Source: a virus
Virus record (IMG/VR): IMGVR_UViG_3300031227_007822
Span: 1-26,866 of that record
Length of the DNA: 26,866 nt
Reading direction: 5' to 3' (one strand)
This document shows positions 4,141 through 21,465 of this stretch, one piece after another; positions within the stretch are counted from its first letter, which is position 1, and each line of letters starts with the position of its first letter. A program made the translations under genes and the position numbers. The notes under the pieces are model-generated. The model had not been told where the DNA came from. It did not search any database and saw only the letters and a program-made list of their open reading frames with translations.

Positions 4141-4535
4141 AAATAATCTTGCTATTAAACCCGACTCCAGCGGCGCGGCCTAGAGTAAATAGACATCACA
4201 CATTTAATCCTAAGTCTGCTATTCAACAAAGAATGTCGTTCGAAATTAAAGCACAACTGCCCAACAATTATATACCCTCAATTAAGCCTATAATACTATC
4301 GCTATTCTTCTTTATGCCTATTCCGAAATCATTATCCAAGAAGAAACAAACGTTGCTTATAGGTAAACCTTGTATTAAAAAGAATGGTGATATTGATAAT
4401 CTATGCAAGATAGTATTAGATGCAAGTAATGGTGTTTTGTTCCGTGATGACTGCCAAGTGTATCATTTACTGACTCAAAAGGTTTATTCTGATAACCCGA
4501 GAATTGAGATAAGATTAATAGAATACGAAGGGTAA
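4137..4535 (+). CDS. rusA: RusA-type Holliday-junction resolvase
   Basis: This is a 132-residue endonuclease of the RusA family, which cuts four-way DNA junctions symmetrically as a dimer. The hallmark block is present: KKNGDIDNLCKIVLDASNG (residues about 81-99), then DD at 104-105 and a lysine at 115 in QKVYSDNPRIEI. D85, D87 and one of D104/D105 correspond to the metal-binding aspartates of RusA. The N-terminus has the family's P.ARPRV motif. The start is TTG at 4137, with AAAGGAG upstream and a TTGA overlap with the preceding gene. Its position just before the terminase genes suits resolution of branched DNA before packaging. Confidence 0.92.
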   Translation: MKIILLLNPTPAARPRVNRHHTFNPKSAIQQRMSFEIKAQLPNNYIPSIKPIILSLFFFMPIPKSLSKKKQTLLIGKPCIKKNGDIDNLCKIVLDASNGVLFRDDCQVYHLLTQKVYSDNPRIEIRLIEYEG

Positions 4536-5184: not shown

Positions 5185-6580
5185 AATACCTCTCGAAGTT
5201 ACTCTTACATTAGATAAGTTCAAAGCAAGAGACTATCAAAAGGATTTTATCTATAACTTTGAGACTAAACAATATTCTAAGTTTATGCTGGTATGGCCTC
5301 GTAGAGCAGGTAAAGATTTACTTTCTTTCCAACTATGCCTAAGGGAGGCGCTTAAATACATGGGGTCTTACTATATCGTGTACCCAACGTACTCTCAAGG
5401 TAAGAAGATTATGTTTCAATCTGTTACTGCTGGAGATGCTGAAACCCCTAGACAGCGTTATATAGATTTTATGCCCAAGGAAGTTGTTAAGTCACTTAAC
5501 AAACAAGAAATGAGATGGGAACTTTATAACGGTTCAATTATCCAATGTGTAGGGTCTAAAGATGTAGATAGGCTTGTTGGAGTCTCGATTCAAGGTGCTA
5601 TCTTTTCAGAGTATGCAAAACAGAGTCCGGAAGTTTATAAATATTTACGTCCTGCAATTATGGAATCTAAGGGATGGTCTATATTTATATCTACTCCAAG
5701 GGGTCGTAATCATTTTTATGATTTATACAATATTTCTAAAGATTCTAAGGATTGGTACTCACAGCATTATAATGTTGAGCAAACTGGACATATTCCAATA
5801 GAAACTATAGAAACAGATATTGCTAATGGAGAATACTCGCAAGATCACGCCTTGCAAGAGTTCTGGTGTCGATTTGATGCGGGTATTGAAGGTACATATT
5901 ACGGTAAGTACCTTGACAGGATGCGTAAGGATGGTTGTATTACCGATATCCCCCATGAGCCGTCCTATCCAGTCCATACGGCTTGGGACCTGGGCTATAA
6001 GGACCCAACTTCTATAATCTTTTTTCAAAAAATTGGCGATTCAATTAGAATTATACGCACATATGAAAATACTGAAGAATATATTGAGCATTATCTTTCA
6101 TATCTGAATAAACTTAAAGATACGCATGGTTATATTTTTGGGAAACACCTGGTGCCTCATGATATAGCGGTGCATGAATACGGTGGAGGAATGACAAGGG
6201 CTGAGAAGGCGTCAAGATTAGGTTTTCATCTTACGCCAGTAACTAAGTTTGGCGATAAAAGGTTTGGACTTAAGGAGGGTATAGATAATGTAAGAACGTT
6301 ATTATCGCGTGTAAGGATAGATGAAGTTAATGCTGAGGGATTGGTCAGGGCTTTAGAGAATTACAGGAAGCAATGGAGTGAGAAGCTACAAGAATATACT
6401 GACAGTCCAAGACATGATAAGTATTCTCACATGGCCGATGCGATGCGATACTTGGCAGCAGGAATGAACAGACTTAATGAGAATGTAAAAAAGGAAGATT
6501 TGGAAGAATCGTTTTTAAAGCATAAGTATAATATGAATGATAAGAGTGGCTTTTTTAATAGTTTTAATAAAAGGAAGTAA
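5162..6580 (+). CDS. terL: Terminase large subunit (ATPase/nuclease)
   Basis: The DNA-packaging motor that docks on the portal, pumps DNA with ATP and cuts concatemers. The 472 residues carry an adenine-binding region (ARDYQKDF, about 22-29) and a Walker A of the terminase type, VWPRRAGKD (44-52). Walker B with the catalytic glutamate is AIFSEYA (146-152), and the coupling motif is STPRG (177-181). The C-terminal RNase-H-like nuclease has acidic residues D276 (AWDLG), D334 (VPHD) and D426 (SHMADAMRYLAAG). The length is normal. It overlaps the small-subunit gene and is followed after a single base by the GroES gene, an unusual neighbour. Confidence 0.95.
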   Translation: MNLIPKNKIPLEVTLTLDKFKARDYQKDFIYNFETKQYSKFMLVWPRRAGKDLLSFQLCLREALKYMGSYYIVYPTYSQGKKIMFQSVTAGDAETPRQRYIDFMPKEVVKSLNKQEMRWELYNGSIIQCVGSKDVDRLVGVSIQGAIFSEYAKQSPEVYKYLRPAIMESKGWSIFISTPRGRNHFYDLYNISKDSKDWYSQHYNVEQTGHIPIETIETDIANGEYSQDHALQEFWCRFDAGIEGTYYGKYLDRMRKDGCITDIPHEPSYPVHTAWDLGYKDPTSIIFFQKIGDSIRIIRTYENTEEYIEHYLSYLNKLKDTHGYIFGKHLVPHDIAVHEYGGGMTRAEKASRLGFHLTPVTKFGDKRFGLKEGIDNVRTLLSRVRIDEVNAEGLVRALENYRKQWSEKLQEYTDSPRHDKYSHMADAMRYLAAGMNRLNENVKKEDLEESFLKHKYNMNDKSGFFNSFNKRK

Positions 6581-6581
6581 T

Positions 6582-6845
6582 ATGGGTATGGAAATGTTAG
6601 AAAATTGGGTATTGATTAAACCTGTTCTACGTAAAGAGGATACAACTAAGTTATTAGGTACATTGAAATCAGAGTACAGGGGTGAAATCATATCTGTTGG
6701 AGATAAGATAAAGACAATGAAAAAAGGGGATATCATAGGTTATTTACCTTACAGTACAACTAACTATCAATTTGATGGGATTAGTTACAGCTTAATTAAG
6801 AGTGAAAATATTATTGGAATAATCAAGGGTGAAGAGAATGCATAA
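6582..6845 (+). CDS. groES: Phage GroES-like co-chaperonin, 87 aa
   Basis: The lid for the GroEL chamber. The order of elements follows GroES: an ENWVLIKPV strand (E. coli 'HDRVIVKR'), a mobile loop, then RGEIISVGDK (E. coli 'RGEVLAVG'), KKGDIIGY (E. coli 'VGDIVIF') and a C-terminal LIKSENIIGII strand (E. coli 'ESDILAIV'). The mobile loop (residues about 17-32) is several residues shorter than in E. coli, and the usual GGIVL is replaced by KLLGTL. The start at 6582 is chosen for AAAGGAAG four bases upstream; a longer frame inside terL has no ribosome site. It overlaps the GroEL gene by 8 bases, as a classical groES-groEL operon. Confidence 0.88.
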   Translation: MGMEMLENWVLIKPVLRKEDTTKLLGTLKSEYRGEIISVGDKIKTMKKGDIIGYLPYSTTNYQFDGISYSLIKSENIIGIIKGEENA

Positions 6846-8460
6846 TGAAATATTGATTGGTGAAAAAGCCAATGAAAAATTACTAGCTGGTGTTAACAAG
6901 ATAAGTGATGCAGTCAAGGCAACTCTTGGAGCAAAAGGAAGAAATGTTATATTAGCTAACTCATATAATTATCCAACTATTACTAAAGATGGGGTAACTG
7001 TAGCTAGAAATATTACTCTCAAGGATGAGTTTGAAGAGACTGGCGCAAAGATGGTAAAAGAGGCAGCATTAAAGACTGCTGAAGTAGCGGGTGATGGTAC
7101 AACTACAGCAACAGTTTTAGTTCAATCCATATACAGAGAAGGATTGAAATTAATATCTGCTTACAATGCATGTATGACAGATGTCAAAAGAGGAATAGAG
7201 AAAGCGGCAAAGATAGTAACAGAAGAGATTAGTAAGAATTCTATTTCTGCAGACAACAAAGAGATAATAAAGAAAGTAGCTTTAGTATCGTCAAACAATG
7301 ATGAAGTATTATCTAATCTTATAGTAGAGGCTTTAGATAAGGCTGGTGATAATGGTGTAATACTTGTAGGTGAGAATGCTAGCACTGAAAACTCTGTAGA
7401 GCTTACTCAAGGAATTAAGTTTGATAATGGATATATTTCACCATTCTTTATCAATAAGCCAGATAGGGGTACATGTGAGTATAAAGATGCTTATGTTCTT
7501 TTATTTGATGGCAATTTAAATTATATAAAAAACATCTTACCTTTACTGGAAAAGGTTGCAGCTAAGAAATCACCTCTTTTAATTATTGCTGAAGATATAG
7601 ATGGCGATGCTCTTGCCTCATTAATCTACAACAAGACGCATAAATTACTTGACGTTGTTTGTGTCAAATCACCTGCTTTTGGTCAACGAAGAAAAGAGCA
7701 TATGATTGACCTAGCGGCAGTTACCAAGGGTACAATAATTTCAGAAAGCATTATCAATGAGTATAACCCTAAGTTTATTTCTGAGTTTTTAACTGAGAAA
7801 GATAAGCTTTACAAGGTTAAGAGTGTCAAGATTGATAGAACCAGCACTATTATTGTTGGCTATAACGATGCAAAGAAAGATATTCTTGATCGTATAAACA
7901 TAATTAAACAACAATTAAGAATAGCTACTACTGATTATGATAAAGATAATATTAAAGCTAGAATAGCAGCACTTACAGATGGTGTTGTTGTGATTAAAGT
8001 TGGTGCAAATACGGCAACAGAGTTGAGAGATAAAAAAGACAGACTTGATGATGCTTTACATGCAACAAAGGCAGCAAAAGAAGGTGGAATTGTTGCGGGT
8101 TGTGGCATTGCTTTATTGAAGGCTGCTGAAAAACTAAGCAAGATTGATCTTAAGGGTGATGAAAAGTTTGGTGCTTTAGTTTTAGAGAAATCAATTAAAG
8201 AACCGTTCAAGGTTATTTTAGAAAATGCTGGAATAAGTTCTTCTGCAGGTTTTGATTTAAGTGGAGATAATGTTTCTCTTGATGTTATTACAGAGAAAGT
8301 GGGTAATATGATAGAAATAGGTATTGTAGATCCTACTAAGGTAACATTAACAGCTTTAAACAATGCGGTAGCTGTTTCATGCATGTTATTGAGTACTAAC
8401 GTTGTTGTGATTCCAGTACAGGATAAGGCATTAAGTCCCGTCTCGTCAGAATCTTTTTAA
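6838..8460 (+). CDS. groEL: Phage-encoded GroEL chaperonin, 540 aa
   Basis: A full-length group I chaperonin that would form a folding cage in the host cytoplasm. It keeps the ATPase residues: TITKDGVTVA (D51), GDGTTTATV (D86), D405 in the DDALHAT block (E. coli D398) and DPTKV (D498). The apical substrate and lid-binding surface is kept as well: GYISPFFINKP has Y199, F203 and F204 at the same numbers as E. coli, followed by ILPLLEKV. Unlike bacterial GroEL it has no Gly-Gly-Met C-terminal tail, ending instead in ALSPVSSESF, and E. coli AGGGVAL reads AGCGIAL. The ATG at 6838 (AAGGG upstream) is preferred over the GTG at 6829. It lies between the terminase and portal genes. Confidence 0.96.
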   Translation: MHNEILIGEKANEKLLAGVNKISDAVKATLGAKGRNVILANSYNYPTITKDGVTVARNITLKDEFEETGAKMVKEAALKTAEVAGDGTTTATVLVQSIYREGLKLISAYNACMTDVKRGIEKAAKIVTEEISKNSISADNKEIIKKVALVSSNNDEVLSNLIVEALDKAGDNGVILVGENASTENSVELTQGIKFDNGYISPFFINKPDRGTCEYKDAYVLLFDGNLNYIKNILPLLEKVAAKKSPLLIIAEDIDGDALASLIYNKTHKLLDVVCVKSPAFGQRRKEHMIDLAAVTKGTIISESIINEYNPKFISEFLTEKDKLYKVKSVKIDRTSTIIVGYNDAKKDILDRINIIKQQLRIATTDYDKDNIKARIAALTDGVVVIKVGANTATELRDKKDRLDDALHATKAAKEGGIVAGCGIALLKAAEKLSKIDLKGDEKFGALVLEKSIKEPFKVILENAGISSSAGFDLSGDNVSLDVITEKVGNMIEIGIVDPTKVTLTALNNAVAVSCMLLSTNVVVIPVQDKALSPVSSESF

Positions 8461-11095: not shown

Positions 11096-11629
11096 ATGAT
11101 AAAAAAGGAAAAGTCTAAAAAGTATAAGAACCCTCATATTTTAAATCCAAGTGATGAACCTGTTGACCTTGTTGGTAGCATGGTTGATGTCTATAAAAAA
11201 GCACCTGAAAATGATGCTACTATTGTTGATATTAATCAATCAGCAAATGATAAAATCTGGCGTGATATATGTGATTTTATAGAAGATGAACGAGCAAGAT
11301 ATGAAGATGTCTTTTTTGTTTCTATTTTAGATGTATTAGATATTGTCTTTGAAAAGAGTCATGATTTTAAAATGTTTTCTCAAAATTCATGTCCATATCC
11401 ATTATATAGGCAATCGGTTTACAGATGTTGGGCAAAGAGTGGTGATAAAGAATTTTTATGGGTAGTTCCTCAGCGTAAGAAAGCAAGAAATATGCGCAAA
11501 CATTGGAAGGAAGTTCCACCAAGAGATAGTGAGTTGCTTGAGTTTGTTATGAAATTTTATGATGGAACATTAAAGAAATTAAGTGATCAAATAAATAAAG
11601 AATTAGGAGCAAGTAATGGAAGTAACTGA
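11096..11629 (+). CDS. Hypothetical head-module protein, 177 aa
   Basis: Start ATG at 11096 with AAGGT upstream. After a basic, probably flexible N-terminus comes a helical region (VDINQSANDKIWRDICDF) and a distinctive aromatic and cysteine-containing core (CPYPLYRQSVYRCWAKSG, then LWVVPQRKKARNMRKHW). I do not recognise a named family. It lies between portal and scaffold-like genes and overlaps the latter by 14 bases, so an assembly or head-completion function is the natural inference. Confidence 0.65.
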   Translation: MIKKEKSKKYKNPHILNPSDEPVDLVGSMVDVYKKAPENDATIVDINQSANDKIWRDICDFIEDERARYEDVFFVSILDVLDIVFEKSHDFKMFSQNSCPYPLYRQSVYRCWAKSGDKEFLWVVPQRKKARNMRKHWKEVPPRDSELLEFVMKFYDGTLKKLSDQINKELGASNGSN

Positions 11630-12281
11630 AGAGAAGATAGAACAACCTCAAGTTGAAGAAGCACCAGTTGAACAACCTCAAGTTGAAGAACCTAAAGAAC
11701 AAGTTAAGGTTGAAAATCCATATGAATATAATGAACGTGATAGAAATGTAGCAGCTTTAAGAGAAGCTAATGAATTAAAAGACAGAGAATTAAATCAATT
11801 ACGAGAAAGATTAAAAAAAGCAGAAGATGATAAATATAATATAGATGATGATGATTTAGTTGAAGGTTCACATCTTAAACATTATAAAAAACAACTTGAT
11901 ACAACTAAAGAAGAATTTAATCAAAAGTTACAGAAAATTGAAACTAAAAATAAACTTATATCAGAAAATAATAATTTCTATGGAATTGTTACCATGGATA
12001 ACGCAGAAAAGTTAAGAAAGGCTAAACCTAAGCTTTTTCAGGCTATTAATTCATCTATAGATGAATATTCTGCTGGTTCTGCATTATATGAAGCTATTAA
12101 AGAATATGTAATAAATCCAAATACTAACAAACAAGAAAAGAAAATTATAGATGATAATTTACATAAACCTAAAGGTGCCGCTCAAGTTAGTGCATCTTCT
12201 CCTTTATCTTATGTAAACGATCCTTCGCGTAGATGGACACAAAAAGAAAAAGATGAGAATTGGAGAAATCGTCCTAAATAA
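11616..12281 (+). CDS. Scaffold-like capsid assembly protein, 221 aa
   Basis: It directly precedes the major capsid gene, the usual place of a scaffold. The N-terminus is acidic and repetitive (EQPQVEE occurs twice, encoded by an identical 21-base segment at 11640-11660 and 11670-11690). A predicted coiled coil follows at about residues 45-115 (ANELKDRELNQLRERLKKAE, then LDTTKEEFNQKLQKIETKNK), with a helical globular part and a basic tail (RRWTQKEKDENWRNRPK) after it. Acidic, coiled-coil proteins with a basic C-terminus are typical of scaffolds that bind the capsid protein. The start ATG at 11616 has AGGAG upstream. No protease motif is visible. Confidence 0.72.
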   Translation: MEVTEEKIEQPQVEEAPVEQPQVEEPKEQVKVENPYEYNERDRNVAALREANELKDRELNQLRERLKKAEDDKYNIDDDDLVEGSHLKHYKKQLDTTKEEFNQKLQKIETKNKLISENNNFYGIVTMDNAEKLRKAKPKLFQAINSSIDEYSAGSALYEAIKEYVINPNTNKQEKKIIDDNLHKPKGAAQVSASSPLSYVNDPSRRWTQKEKDENWRNRPK

Positions 12282-12288
12282 AAAATTC

Positions 12289-12318
12289 TTGAATAAATAT
12301 ATGATATTGGCGTATATT
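12289..12318 (+). promoter_or_regulatory. Predicted promoter for the major capsid gene
   Basis: TTGAAT (12289-12294), an 18-base spacer and TATATT (12313-12318) resemble a sigma70 promoter. A start about seven bases further on would fall near 12325, the first base of the hairpin array. It overlaps the perfect 12-bp inverted repeat at 12290-12324, so the promoter itself can form a hairpin or cruciform. Confidence 0.4.
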
Positions 12319-12324
12319 TATTCA
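12290..12324. repeat. Perfect 12-bp inverted repeat upstream of hairpin array
   Basis: TGAATAAATATA (12290-12301) and TATATTTATTCA (12313-12324) are exact reverse complements around an 11-base loop. The element follows the scaffold gene stop by eight bases and abuts the 24-bp hairpin array. It could be a terminator for the upstream operon, an operator, or part of the capsid-gene promoter. Confidence 0.65.
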
Positions 12325-12420
12325 GACGTAAGAGCCTCGTCACCTCACGGCGTAAGAGTCTCGCCAACTCATGACGTAAGAGTTTCGTCAGCTCATGACG
12401 TAATAAGTTCTCGTCAAACT
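12325..12420 (+). repeat. Four tandem 24-bp units, each a small hairpin, before the capsid gene
   Basis: Units start at 12325, 12349, 12373 and 12397, exactly 24 bases apart. Each is a 4-bp stem around TAAGAGNNT (11 bases in the last unit), followed by a 7-base linker. Units 1, 3 and 4 pair GACG with CGTC; unit 2 pairs GGCG with CGCC, a compensatory double change that keeps pairing. The array fills most of the leader between the scaffold and capsid genes. It probably acts as RNA structure (stability or translation control) or as a protein-binding array; which one is not shown by sequence. Confidence 0.8.
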
Positions 12421-12464
12421 TAAATGTATTGTGAAACTTATTCATTTATATTTAAGGATTCAAA

Positions 12465-13418
12465 ATGTTAAATCCACAAACACTTCCATACCCACAACAA
12501 TTATCATATGATAGAAATGTCATATCTACCCCATATGGAAGAAATACTCATAAAATTGGTTCGACAAAACGAACGTTACCAGTAAAAAGTAGCAGCACGT
12601 TAAAAATTGAAAGTTATGATGAACTCAATCCACCATTAGTACGAATTGGTGATACTGATATGGATGTACCACCACAAGATTTTAATTCTAGATTTAAGGA
12701 AGTTAAAGTAGAATTTTATGGTACTTATAGTCAAGTAAGTTCAAGATTAATTCTTCAATCTCAAAGTAATGTTTTAGAAAATTTATCTTTTGCAATGGGT
12801 AAAACTTTACGTAAAGCAGAAGATTTATTAACAAGAAATATGCTTATGTCTACAGCATCAGCAGTAAACTGTGTTTACGGACATAACGGAGATACTCCAA
12901 GAGAAGTTATAGATGCAGATTTATCAGATGCATATACATCTCTTTTGGGAGCAAATGCATATAATATGTTTGAAGGTTTGGAAGGTGAAAATAAATTTGG
13001 AACAGCTCCACAACAAAATGCTTATTTAGCATTAGCACATACAAAAATTGCTTCAACCCTTGATCGTATTTCAACTGAGTTTACAAAAACTATTAATTAT
13101 CCTTCTCAGACTAATGTAACTCCTGCTGAATATGGTTCTGCTAGCGGATTCAGATTCTTTTTAAGTACTAATGGAATGATTGAACCTTCAGCTTCAGTAC
13201 TAGGGAACGATATTATTCCTATCGTACTTGAAGGATGGGATTCAGTTAGTGTTGTAGAGCAAGATGAGTTTAGTGCTAGTTTCCTTTATAGACCTCCAGA
13301 AATGGTAAGTACATTAGGTTTATTTGCTGAAGTAGGATTTATTTTTGCTGAAAAAGCATTTATTCAACGAGATGACTGCGTAATTAAACTTAACTCAACA
13401 ACATATAAGGGAGCATAG
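12465..13418 (+). CDS. Major capsid protein, N4 gp56-like, 317 aa
   Basis: The shell protein of the head. It is 317 residues long with the pattern of N4 gp56-type capsid proteins (HK97 fold): a KVEFYGTYSQVSSRLILQSQ strand and helix, a long helix rich in Leu and Lys (LSFAMGKTLRKAEDLLTRNM), a GFRFFLSTNG strand and a C-terminal FAEKAFIQRDDCVIKL segment. The start ATG at 12465 has AAGGA upstream. It follows the scaffold-like gene and has its own structured leader, in keeping with very high expression. The family assignment comes from pattern similarity; the position makes the major capsid role secure. Confidence 0.82.
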   Translation: MLNPQTLPYPQQLSYDRNVISTPYGRNTHKIGSTKRTLPVKSSSTLKIESYDELNPPLVRIGDTDMDVPPQDFNSRFKEVKVEFYGTYSQVSSRLILQSQSNVLENLSFAMGKTLRKAEDLLTRNMLMSTASAVNCVYGHNGDTPREVIDADLSDAYTSLLGANAYNMFEGLEGENKFGTAPQQNAYLALAHTKIASTLDRISTEFTKTINYPSQTNVTPAEYGSASGFRFFLSTNGMIEPSASVLGNDIIPIVLEGWDSVSVVEQDEFSASFLYRPPEMVSTLGLFAEVGFIFAEKAFIQRDDCVIKLNSTTYKGA

Positions 13419-20179: not shown

Positions 20180-21465
20180 GAAATAGAAGAAAAGGAACTC
20201 TTGATAATTTATTTGGCGGAGCTGTACAACCTCTTAATCAAGCATTAGATATGTTGTTATCTGATAAAGTTAAATCTATGCAGGAAGATAGAGCTTCTCA
20301 AATACAGGAAGCTAATAAAGAAAAATATTATAATGATTTAGTGTCTTCTGGGATTAGTCCACAACTTGCAGGTATTTTAAGAAATGCTAGCGAGAGAGAA
20401 AGAATAGCTGCATTACAAAGTCCAATATTACCAGTTGGTAATCAAAATCAACAACAAGTACAACCGCAAGGCCAACCAGGTCAGCTAGGAGCATTAGGTC
20501 AATTAGAACAAGGACAAGGACAAGATCCAGGACAAGAACAAGGACAAGATCCAGGACAAGAACAAGGACAAGATCCAGGTATGGTAGGCAATCTTTTAGG
20601 ACAACAAGATCAAGGACAACAACAACAACCTGGATATGCAGATATAATTACAGCGGGGTTAAACAATTCACCACTTTTAAGACAGAATTCTGAATTAGCT
20701 GAGAAGAAATTTGAATTTCAAAAACAGCAAAAACAAGAAGATATAAAATTAAAAAAAGAACAAGACGTACAAAAATCTTTTCAAGCTGTAAAAGCAGATA
20801 TAGATGCAGCAGAAAAAACAATTATAAGGTCTAAAAATAAAGCTAAAAATGCTAAAGAATTAATGCATGGTATTAAAAAAAATGATGTTATTACTGGAAG
20901 AACTAAAGCAATAATAGATGATCTTGGTTTAAGTAAATATATAACAACAAAGGGAACACAATTAGCTGAAAAATCTTCATCAAGGATTTTAACTGATTAT
21001 ATTGAAGAAGCTTCTGGAACAGGAAGTAAACTAATTAAGGGTGTTTTAGACGCATACAAAAATATAACACCAAGATTATATTTACAAAAAGATATCGTAC
21101 ATCTTTTAGCTAGTGGTAATTTTTATAATGCTAAAAAAGAAATTGCTACTGCCAAATCAGAAGTTGATGTAGTTGAAAAATATCAAAGATTAGGAATAGC
21201 TCTTCCTGCTACTTGGAAAAAAGAAGCTAGACTTTTAGCTAAACCAAAACTAAAATTTCTTGATAATCAATATGGAATGGTTGCTGGTAAAGTGTTTGGT
21301 AAAGATACATATAAACATATGTATAAAGAAAATAAATTATTTAGAAATAAAATTAAAGATGGAACAATAAAAGATAAAGCTTATATACCTGCAGATTTAG
21401 GTGGATATTATAAGTATGATAAAAAAAATAAATCACTTACATATTTATTGCACAAACCTGAATAA
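20167..21465 (+). CDS. Ejection-type internal virion protein with Gln-rich repeats, 432 aa
   Basis: The ATG at 20167 has AGGGG upstream and overlaps the preceding gene. Residues about 95-160 are a Gln/Gly/Pro-rich low-complexity region containing a perfect EQGQDPGQ repeat, encoded by a 24-base tandem repeat at 20518-20579. A Lys/Gln coiled coil follows (EKKFEFQKQQKQEDIKLKKE), then a long helical, basic C-terminal domain. No enzymatic motif or signal peptide. The Gln-rich and helical make-up and the neighbours suggest a gp20-like ejection protein that leaves the head with the DNA. The function is inferred. Confidence 0.58.
   Translation: MAIIGNRRKGTLDNLFGGAVQPLNQALDMLLSDKVKSMQEDRASQIQEANKEKYYNDLVSSGISPQLAGILRNASERERIAALQSPILPVGNQNQQQVQPQGQPGQLGALGQLEQGQGQDPGQEQGQDPGQEQGQDPGMVGNLLGQQDQGQQQQPGYADIITAGLNNSPLLRQNSELAEKKFEFQKQQKQEDIKLKKEQDVQKSFQAVKADIDAAEKTIIRSKNKAKNAKELMHGIKKNDVITGRTKAIIDDLGLSKYITTKGTQLAEKSSSRILTDYIEEASGTGSKLIKGVLDAYKNITPRLYLQKDIVHLLASGNFYNAKKEIATAKSEVDVVEKYQRLGIALPATWKKEARLLAKPKLKFLDNQYGMVAGKVFGKDTYKHMYKENKLFRNKIKDGTIKDKAYIPADLGGYYKYDKKNKSLTYLLHKPE
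20518..20579 (+). repeat. 24-bp perfect tandem repeat inside ejection-type gene
   Basis: The unit GGACAAGATCCAGGACAAGAACAA occurs twice in full (20518-20541 and 20542-20565) and again for its first 14 bases (20566-20579). It encodes the repeat EQGQDPGQ in a disordered, Gln-rich region. Perfect identity at DNA level points to recent slippage or expansion, and copy number may vary among relatives. Confidence 0.8.

Follow-up and report, generated by a model that had tools for sequence, protein, structure and literature searches.

A tandem array of small pseudoknots before a phage major capsid gene as a candidate translational switch

Introduction

Tailed phages must match the supply of hundreds of capsid subunits to that of scaffold and DNA and, to our knowledge, RNA-level control of phage capsid synthesis is largely obscure outside a few models. 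The window analysed here, which spans an entire 26,866-base IMG/VR record, belongs to a podovirus-like phage encoding a large terminase, a P22-type portal, GroES/GroEL, a putative scaffold and a major head protein. Between the last two genes lies a short repeat array that an earlier note read as four plain hairpins with a compensatory base change, possibly acting on the capsid mRNA or as a capsid nucleation signal. Which structure do these repeats form, and how could it act on the capsid gene that follows?

The array and its gene neighbourhood

The features of the locus are as follows.

11616..12281, + strand: putative scaffold gene (221 aa, acidic), an ORF between the portal and capsid genes
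12289..12318, + strand: sigma-70-like promoter TTGAAT-18-TATATT (9/12), predicted start at about 12325
12290..12324, no strand assigned: perfect 12-bp A/T-rich inverted repeat overlapping the promoter
12325..12346, + strand: pseudoknot unit 1; stem 1 12325-12328/12338-12341 (GACG/CGTC), stem 2 12332-12334/12344-12346 (GAG/CTC)
12349..12370, + strand: pseudoknot unit 2; stem 1 12349-12352/12362-12365 (GGCG/CGCC), stem 2 12356-12359/12367-12370 (GAGT/ACTC)
12373..12394, + strand: pseudoknot unit 3; stem 1 12373-12376/12386-12389 (GACG/CGTC), stem 2 core 12380-12382/12392-12394 (GAG/CTC)
12397..12422, + strand: last pseudoknot unit, AAG type; stem 1 12397-12400/12412-12415 (GACG/CGTC), stem 2 12404-12409/12417-12422 (TAAGTT/AACTTA)
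12419..12456, + strand: hairpin sequestering the Shine-Dalgarno (SD) sequence; arms 12419-12428 (CTTAAATGTA) and 12447-12456 (TATATTTAAG), of which 12419-12422 is common to stem 2 of the last unit
12454..12458, + strand: SD sequence AAGGA of the capsid gene, its AAG paired within the hairpin
12465..13418, + strand: major capsid gene, 317 aa, its product matching phrog_1357 (major head protein) at E 3.8e-11

The four units with a period of 24 (starts at 12325, 12349, 12373 and 12397), their GACG/CGTC stems (units 1, 3 and 4) and the GGCG/CGCC stem of unit 2 were recovered as first described, as was the location of the array between the scaffold gene, ending at 12281, and the capsid gene, starting at 12465. 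The name of the scaffold gene is positional, as its product (11616..12281) had no PHROGs or Pfam match. TRF reported the array as a tandem repeat (12325-12417, 3.8 copies) whose score of 112 was the second highest in the window. The motif GRCGTAAGAGNNTCGYC had three exact copies in the window, all in the array, and with up to three mismatches it had four matches compared to 0.38 expected, a number reached in none of 100 shuffles. The earlier description needs correction in unit 4, where the loop is TAATAAGTTCT; since this loop is 11 nt long, the unit ends at 12422.

The inverted repeat at 12290-12324 (TGAATAAATATA/TATATTTATTCA) stops where the first array unit begins, and could be an operator or a hairpin of read-through RNA.

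Structure and covariation of the pseudoknot unit

The seven bases that had been taken for a spacer between hairpins proved to be part of the structure. The linker CTC (AACTTA in unit 4) pairs with GAG (TAAGTT in unit 4) in the loop, so that stem 1 stands while each unit becomes a small H-type pseudoknot, with the linker as the 3' half of a second helix. The layout of unit 1 is GACG-TAA-[GAG]-CCT-CGTC-AC-[CTC], and stem 2 in the window is of two types, GAG(T)/(A)CTC in units 1-3 and TAAGTT/AACTTA in unit 4. The earlier reading had overlooked this pseudoknot, the distinct last unit and the strand common with the SD-sequestering hairpin. Single-sequence folding was uninformative for the isolated array, because a knot-free fold missed stem 2 and preferred another structure (z -1.6); compact pseudoknot families of this kind escape both knot-free folding and Rfam scans.

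Many relatives carried tandem repeats of the same build in other letters just before the capsid ATG (GGCGTACAGAGTCTCGCCAACTC, GGCTGTATCGCCCCATCGCCAGGGC and GGCTGTACGGGCATCGCCAACCC), in which 3-6 loop bases pair directly 3' of the stem (GAG/CTC, GCCC/GGGC and GGG/CCC). The consensus unit measures 22-26 nt. Its stem 1 is GRC(N)G/CGYC, its loop opens with U/C-A-(N), and the 3' arm of stem 1 is flanked by a near-constant U on its 5' side and a near-constant A on its 3' side; stem 2 pairs the hairpin loop with the nucleotides immediately 3' of stem 1 and is typically GAG/CUC or GGG/CCC in non-terminal units. The spacing between units ranged from 0 to more than 30 nt in relatives.

A simple scanner for this design found 141 units in 55 leaders compared to 6.4 in dinucleotide shuffles, and an improved version found 349 units in 100 distinct leaders; these are related to one another, and only identical 200-nt leaders had been removed. 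Both counts come from a scanner tuned on the same data; the anchor-only stem-2 test, the covariation test and the sequence-only searches of IMG/VR depend least on this tuning. For the anchor-only test, 211 units were chosen; the selection used stem 1 together with the anchors U/C-A and UC and took no account of stem 2. All three core stem-2 pairs were Watson-Crick in 74% of them at one fixed register, whereas other registers reached at most 12%, save 32% and 37% in two that extend the same helix. Complementarity between loop and tail (stem 2) was 96%, compared to 40% when tails were exchanged between units.

Both helices also covaried across the relatives, bearing out the selection on structure that the base change in unit 2 had suggested. 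Among 51 equal-length units, pairing was present in 98% of cells with 55 double changes, compared to at most 50% when slid; for stem 2 alone, 95.4% were paired with 32 double changes, compared to at most 55%. The 100% pairing of stem 1 in this set is partly built in, because stem 1 served to choose the 51 units; in an independent test, the stem-1 flanks paired at 57% of anchor sites compared to 22.5% when swapped. Plain hairpins joined by a linker were ruled out, as the linker covaries with the loop. Pairing between neighbouring units was also considered and is unnecessary, since stem-2 types differ among neighbours yet match within units (L060 and L030). The three-dimensional form of the unit is less certain, because the lengths of loop 3 (no more than 0-2 nt beside a stem 1 of 4 bp) and of loop 2 (2-3 nt) are atypical of coaxial, textbook H-type knots.

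Occurrence in relatives and specificity for capsid genes

Relatives were collected by portal alignment, which gave about 80 IMG/VR contigs (42-46% portal identity), and by capsid alignment, which gave 80 more. About 100 genomes of uncultured podoviruses carried the array, usually with 2-5 and up to 8 units, right upstream of the major capsid gene. Checking relatives for a missing array or unconserved stems, as the earlier note had proposed, thus turned out in favour of the element. The capsid proteins of array-bearing relatives shared as little as 39% identity with that of the window (39% for L060). The capsid protein of the window, with at most 40% identity to others, forms a very long branch of the tree, yet the window keeps the full array design. 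No close match to the capsid protein of the window was found among cultured phages.

Across 1.49 Mb of relatives, scanned on both strands, 87 of the 90 clusters of at least two units lay in capsid-gene leaders, and the remaining three preceded capsid genes interrupted by an insertion (intron-split). Scans of the whole IMG/VR with DNA patterns as the sole criterion returned 97 loci, 76 of them with a capsid gene downstream; the rest were three that end with the contig just past the array, 17 single coincidences, nearly all in apparently coding DNA, and the locus L329. These scans used stricter unit patterns, which succeeded where a loose one (GTAAGAG..TCG followed by a second GTAAGAG) had been useless, its printed matches being scattered and coding-like by eye, with no capsid leader among them. 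Among cultured-phage capsid homologues (21-27% identity), no array was found in the scaffold and capsid leaders of the annotated L217, L219 and L221 or in the upstream DNA of the unannotated L218 and L220; scanner matches occurred only in L218 and lacked the U/C-A anchor. Overall, the evidence is strong both for the predicted tandem pseudoknot structure and for its association with capsid genes.

The G+C-rich phage L329 carried three tandem units (4172-4295) between a scaffold-like ORF and the gene for a major head protein (phrog_14242, E 1e-21) without detectable similarity to the family of the window (hhalign probability 0.5%). Its last unit has the stem 2 ACGG/CCGT, followed by CCGTTGAG, which is complementary to CTCAACGG covering the SD region. 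On this one case, the element appears to follow the capsid gene and not one capsid protein sequence.

The longest array (L295:4589-4800) consisted of seven near-identical 24-nt units, an AAG-type last unit and then the SD sequence, making it the clearest instance of the design; the near-identity suggests recent duplication of its units, and the locus offers a natural series for unit-number dependence.

Split capsid genes were seen in L008, L029, L034, L043, L068, L082, L135, L136, L169, L172 and L209, the insertion lying either just past roughly codon 14 or in the vicinity of codons 80-118. The insertions resemble self-splicing introns and had no Rfam match at the gathering score.

No Rfam 15 family was detected at the gathering score in the window, nor at the array in ten relatives, where only two tRNAs were reported, and the best weak matches in the window (E 0.69-10) were to no element of such kind. 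Searches of the open-access literature found nothing on tandem pseudoknots of phage capsid genes, and the papers on tandem pseudoknots, judged by title, were not about phage leaders. The impression that no named element of this kind exists therefore held, with neither an Rfam family nor a paper found.

Position of the array in the capsid transcript

The promoter predicted in the window, which would place the RNA start at the first unit, found support in the relatives. Within the 200 nt upstream of 83 leaders, a TATAAT-like box ending 6-10 nt before the first unit was matched 33 times, compared to about three per bin, and terminator-like hairpins occurred upstream in 30 of the 83 leaders compared to about 11 after mononucleotide shuffling. 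From the peak of -10-like boxes together with these hairpins, the capsid mRNA is predicted to be a transcript of its own that starts at the first pseudoknot (12325 in the window). The + strand of the array held no terminator-like site (a G+C-rich hairpin followed by a U run), so the array itself does not qualify as an intrinsic terminator or attenuator.

At 16 loci where the scaffold and capsid genes abut (e.g. L003, L130, L193 and L210), no array lay between the two. In this scaffold-first group, the 14 scaffold leaders examined had one or two pseudoknots upstream of the scaffold start codon, with scores far above those of mononucleotide shuffles, and the last pseudoknot abutted the SD sequence. 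In the predicted transcripts, the element hence keeps its place at the front of the capsid transcription unit.

The last unit and the Shine-Dalgarno hairpin

The last unit differed from the others in its second helix, as an AAG-type (SD-like) stem-2 strand was present in 53 of 89 last units compared to 30 of 170 other units. Moreover, in about half of the leaders, that of the window included, the stem-2 partner strand of the last unit doubled as the 5' arm of a hairpin covering the SD sequence; in the window, this hairpin is the predicted fold once the knot is ignored. Some complementarity to the SD region is expected because SD sequences are alike, and 23% (maximum 30%) of leaders with swapped SD regions had an anti-SD helix with a score of at least 4 overlapping the last stem 2, compared to 56% of the 100 leaders themselves. 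At a score of at least 6, the proportions were 3% with swapped SD regions and 24%, while the penultimate unit reached these two scores with the SD region in 5% and 0% of cases, respectively. The arms of the anti-SD hairpin vary between phages (CTTGAAAG/TTTTCAAG, CTTTAAAT/ATTTAAAG and CTTAGA/TCTAAG), hence this hairpin covaries too. At the level of sequence, about half of the leaders, above the swap controls, thus have the two mutually exclusive structures expected of a riboswitch-type element, one of them hiding the SD sequence, and the strand common to both would imply a translational switch.

In about 44% of leaders, the last stem 2 had no direct overlap with the SD region. On the capsid tree, the overlap label required 19 changes for 44 rows compared to a shuffled mean of 32; as the label is scattered over the tree, the link between last unit and SD sequence was repeatedly gained or lost. 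By eye, the SD sequence in one lineage without this overlap, that of L013, L015, L040, L075, L175 and L180, pairs with bases just before the ATG (e.g. AAGG-AAAA-CCTT-ATG in L013), and this short hairpin is perhaps an alternative gate.

Proposed mechanism and alternative explanations

We propose, with a probability of about 0.62, that the array is a cis-regulatory RNA switch in the 5' leader of the major capsid mRNA, built of tandem miniature H-type pseudoknots; we infer the switch, its direction and the transcription start from the patterns given above. The upstream units would act as a platform of repeats at the extreme 5' end of the RNA, and the last unit would be the output. In the window, its UAAGUU strand would mimic the SD region UAAGGA, and the two would compete for one strand, AACUUA. 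With the last pseudoknot formed, the ribosome-binding site would be open; with this pseudoknot open, the AACUUA strand would pair with the SD region and capsid translation would fall. A phage protein binding the tandem units cooperatively would set the switch and tie capsid synthesis to the assembly stage. We put forward this protein trigger tentatively, at odds well below even; it is favoured over other triggers because a protein would be well served by a compact, repeated motif whose loop bases are fixed, and because T4 gene 32, the nearest analogue with a working mechanism, acts in this way. The capsid protein is disfavoured as a universal ligand because that of L329 is unrelated, and the scaffold or another protein is more likely. 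A role linked to the capsid mRNA agrees with the earlier proposal, whose mRNA stabilisation and protein binding are both still plausible; a nucleation signal found no support.

The main rival to a switch set by a protein is that the first knot, at or close to the first base of the RNA, and the knots behind it block 5'-end-dependent decay (RppH/RNase E or RNase J) and give a long-lived capsid mRNA, the anti-SD hairpin being secondary. The -10-like box 6-10 nt before the first unit in the 83 leaders, from which the RNA should start at the knot, a unit number varying freely from 2 to 8, as in a passive shield, and the large amounts of capsid protein required all fit such protection. It needs, however, neither a differing last unit nor a stem 2 matching the SD region, and the last pseudoknot abuts the SD sequence in the scaffold-first group; as the whole explanation it is unlikely, and both functions can coexist. 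We consider it more doubtful still that each unit binds a small molecule or a metal, with tandem units giving a steep, digital response in SD access. The near-constant loop bases (U/C-A opening loop 1 and the U and A that flank the 3' arm of stem 1) could make a pocket, the strand exchange resembles an expression platform, and small H-type pseudoknots serve as aptamers in the preQ1-I and SAM-II riboswitches, but known aptamers are larger than these 22-26-nt units, a capsid gene is not an obvious metabolite target and no Rfam match was found.

Two further explanations carry little weight. An RNA decoy for a host endoribonuclease toxin or another defence, placed in a strongly expressed late transcript, would recall type III antitoxins, whose repeats fold as H-type pseudoknots (PMC8860590); the fixed place of the array next to the capsid gene or the neighbouring scaffold gene across about 100 genomes, the differing last unit tied to the SD region and the lack of a toxin gene adjoining the array in the window make it very improbable. 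Least credible of all is an operator or promoter array acting at the DNA level through a DNA-binding protein, without an RNA role: the 24-bp period in the window and the inverted repeat overlapping the promoter would suit it, whereas the spacing of 0 to more than 30 nt in relatives, the change of sequences while both crossing helices stay paired and the position of the array downstream of the predicted start speak against it.

The candidate switch shares traits with several known systems. In T4, T2 and RB69, the gene 32 mRNA leader holds a single pseudoknot that acts as an autogenous translational operator, and in T4 the binding of gp32 nucleates at the pseudoknot and spreads over the unstructured ribosome-binding site (PMC3014915). 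The array is likewise a phage leader pseudoknot element upstream of the ribosome-binding site and start codon and tied to translational control, but it comprises 2-8 small tandem knots, has a strand common with an SD hairpin, precedes a capsid gene and belongs to an unrelated phage group. Like type III antitoxin RNAs (ToxI and CptI), whose precursor is cleaved and bound by the adjacent endoribonuclease toxin (PMC8860590), it consists of tandem H-type pseudoknot repeats 5' of a gene. Unlike them, it lies directly upstream of a major head protein gene and not of an endoribonuclease toxin gene, and its last unit competes with the capsid SD region.

A pseudoknot competing with SD-region pairing is also the trait that the array shares with translational riboswitches of the preQ1-I, SAM-II and SAM/SAH types, in which an H-type pseudoknot competes with or controls SD access. 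It differs from these in having no Rfam match, in being smaller and arrayed, in its capsid target and in that the knot appears to free the SD sequence and not to hide it. For a podovirus whose portal is of the P22 type, such control over a head-assembly gene recalls phage P22 itself, where synthesis of the scaffolding protein is autoregulated post-transcriptionally; we do not know the P22 RNA element to be a pseudoknot array.

It is possible, at somewhat less than even odds, that the array represents a new class of cis-regulatory RNA, a multi-copy pseudoknot sensor at the 5' end of phage capsid mRNAs that integrates the occupancy of several identical units and whose differing terminal unit gates the ribosome-binding site, a module for capsid dosage control transferred or evolved among phages of unrelated capsid families. 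If so, we know of no earlier translational switch made of arrayed pseudoknots. The capsid leader would be a conserved, covarying and recognisable entry point to the RNA-level control of capsid synthesis, small enough for reconstitution in a reporter.

Hosts and other observations in the window

Portal relatives with at least 440 bits were present in 9 of 234 Chlamydiota genomes (G001, G004, G041, G168, G040, G127, G220, G047 and G147) compared to 1 of 399 Pseudomonadota genomes, the latter being the search centre; G001 and G004 had first turned up in the capsid search. Environmental chlamydiae are thus plausible hosts, hinting at a group of tailed phages that infect them; as the Chlamydiota matches lay on separate contigs of about 5-41 kb, a binning error is possible.

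Elsewhere in the window, a phage chaperonin pair, GroES-like (102 aa) and GroEL-like (543 aa), lies at 6537-8460 between the terminase and portal genes. The motif ATAAATGTAAT-N4/5-TGTAATAA occurs at 1085-1110 and 2165-2190, in two intergenic regions flanking divergent early genes, and is possibly the operator of a phage regulator. In-frame short repeats were present at 20508-20579 (24 bp) inside a structural gene and at 11640-11697 (15 bp) at the N-terminus of the putative scaffold.
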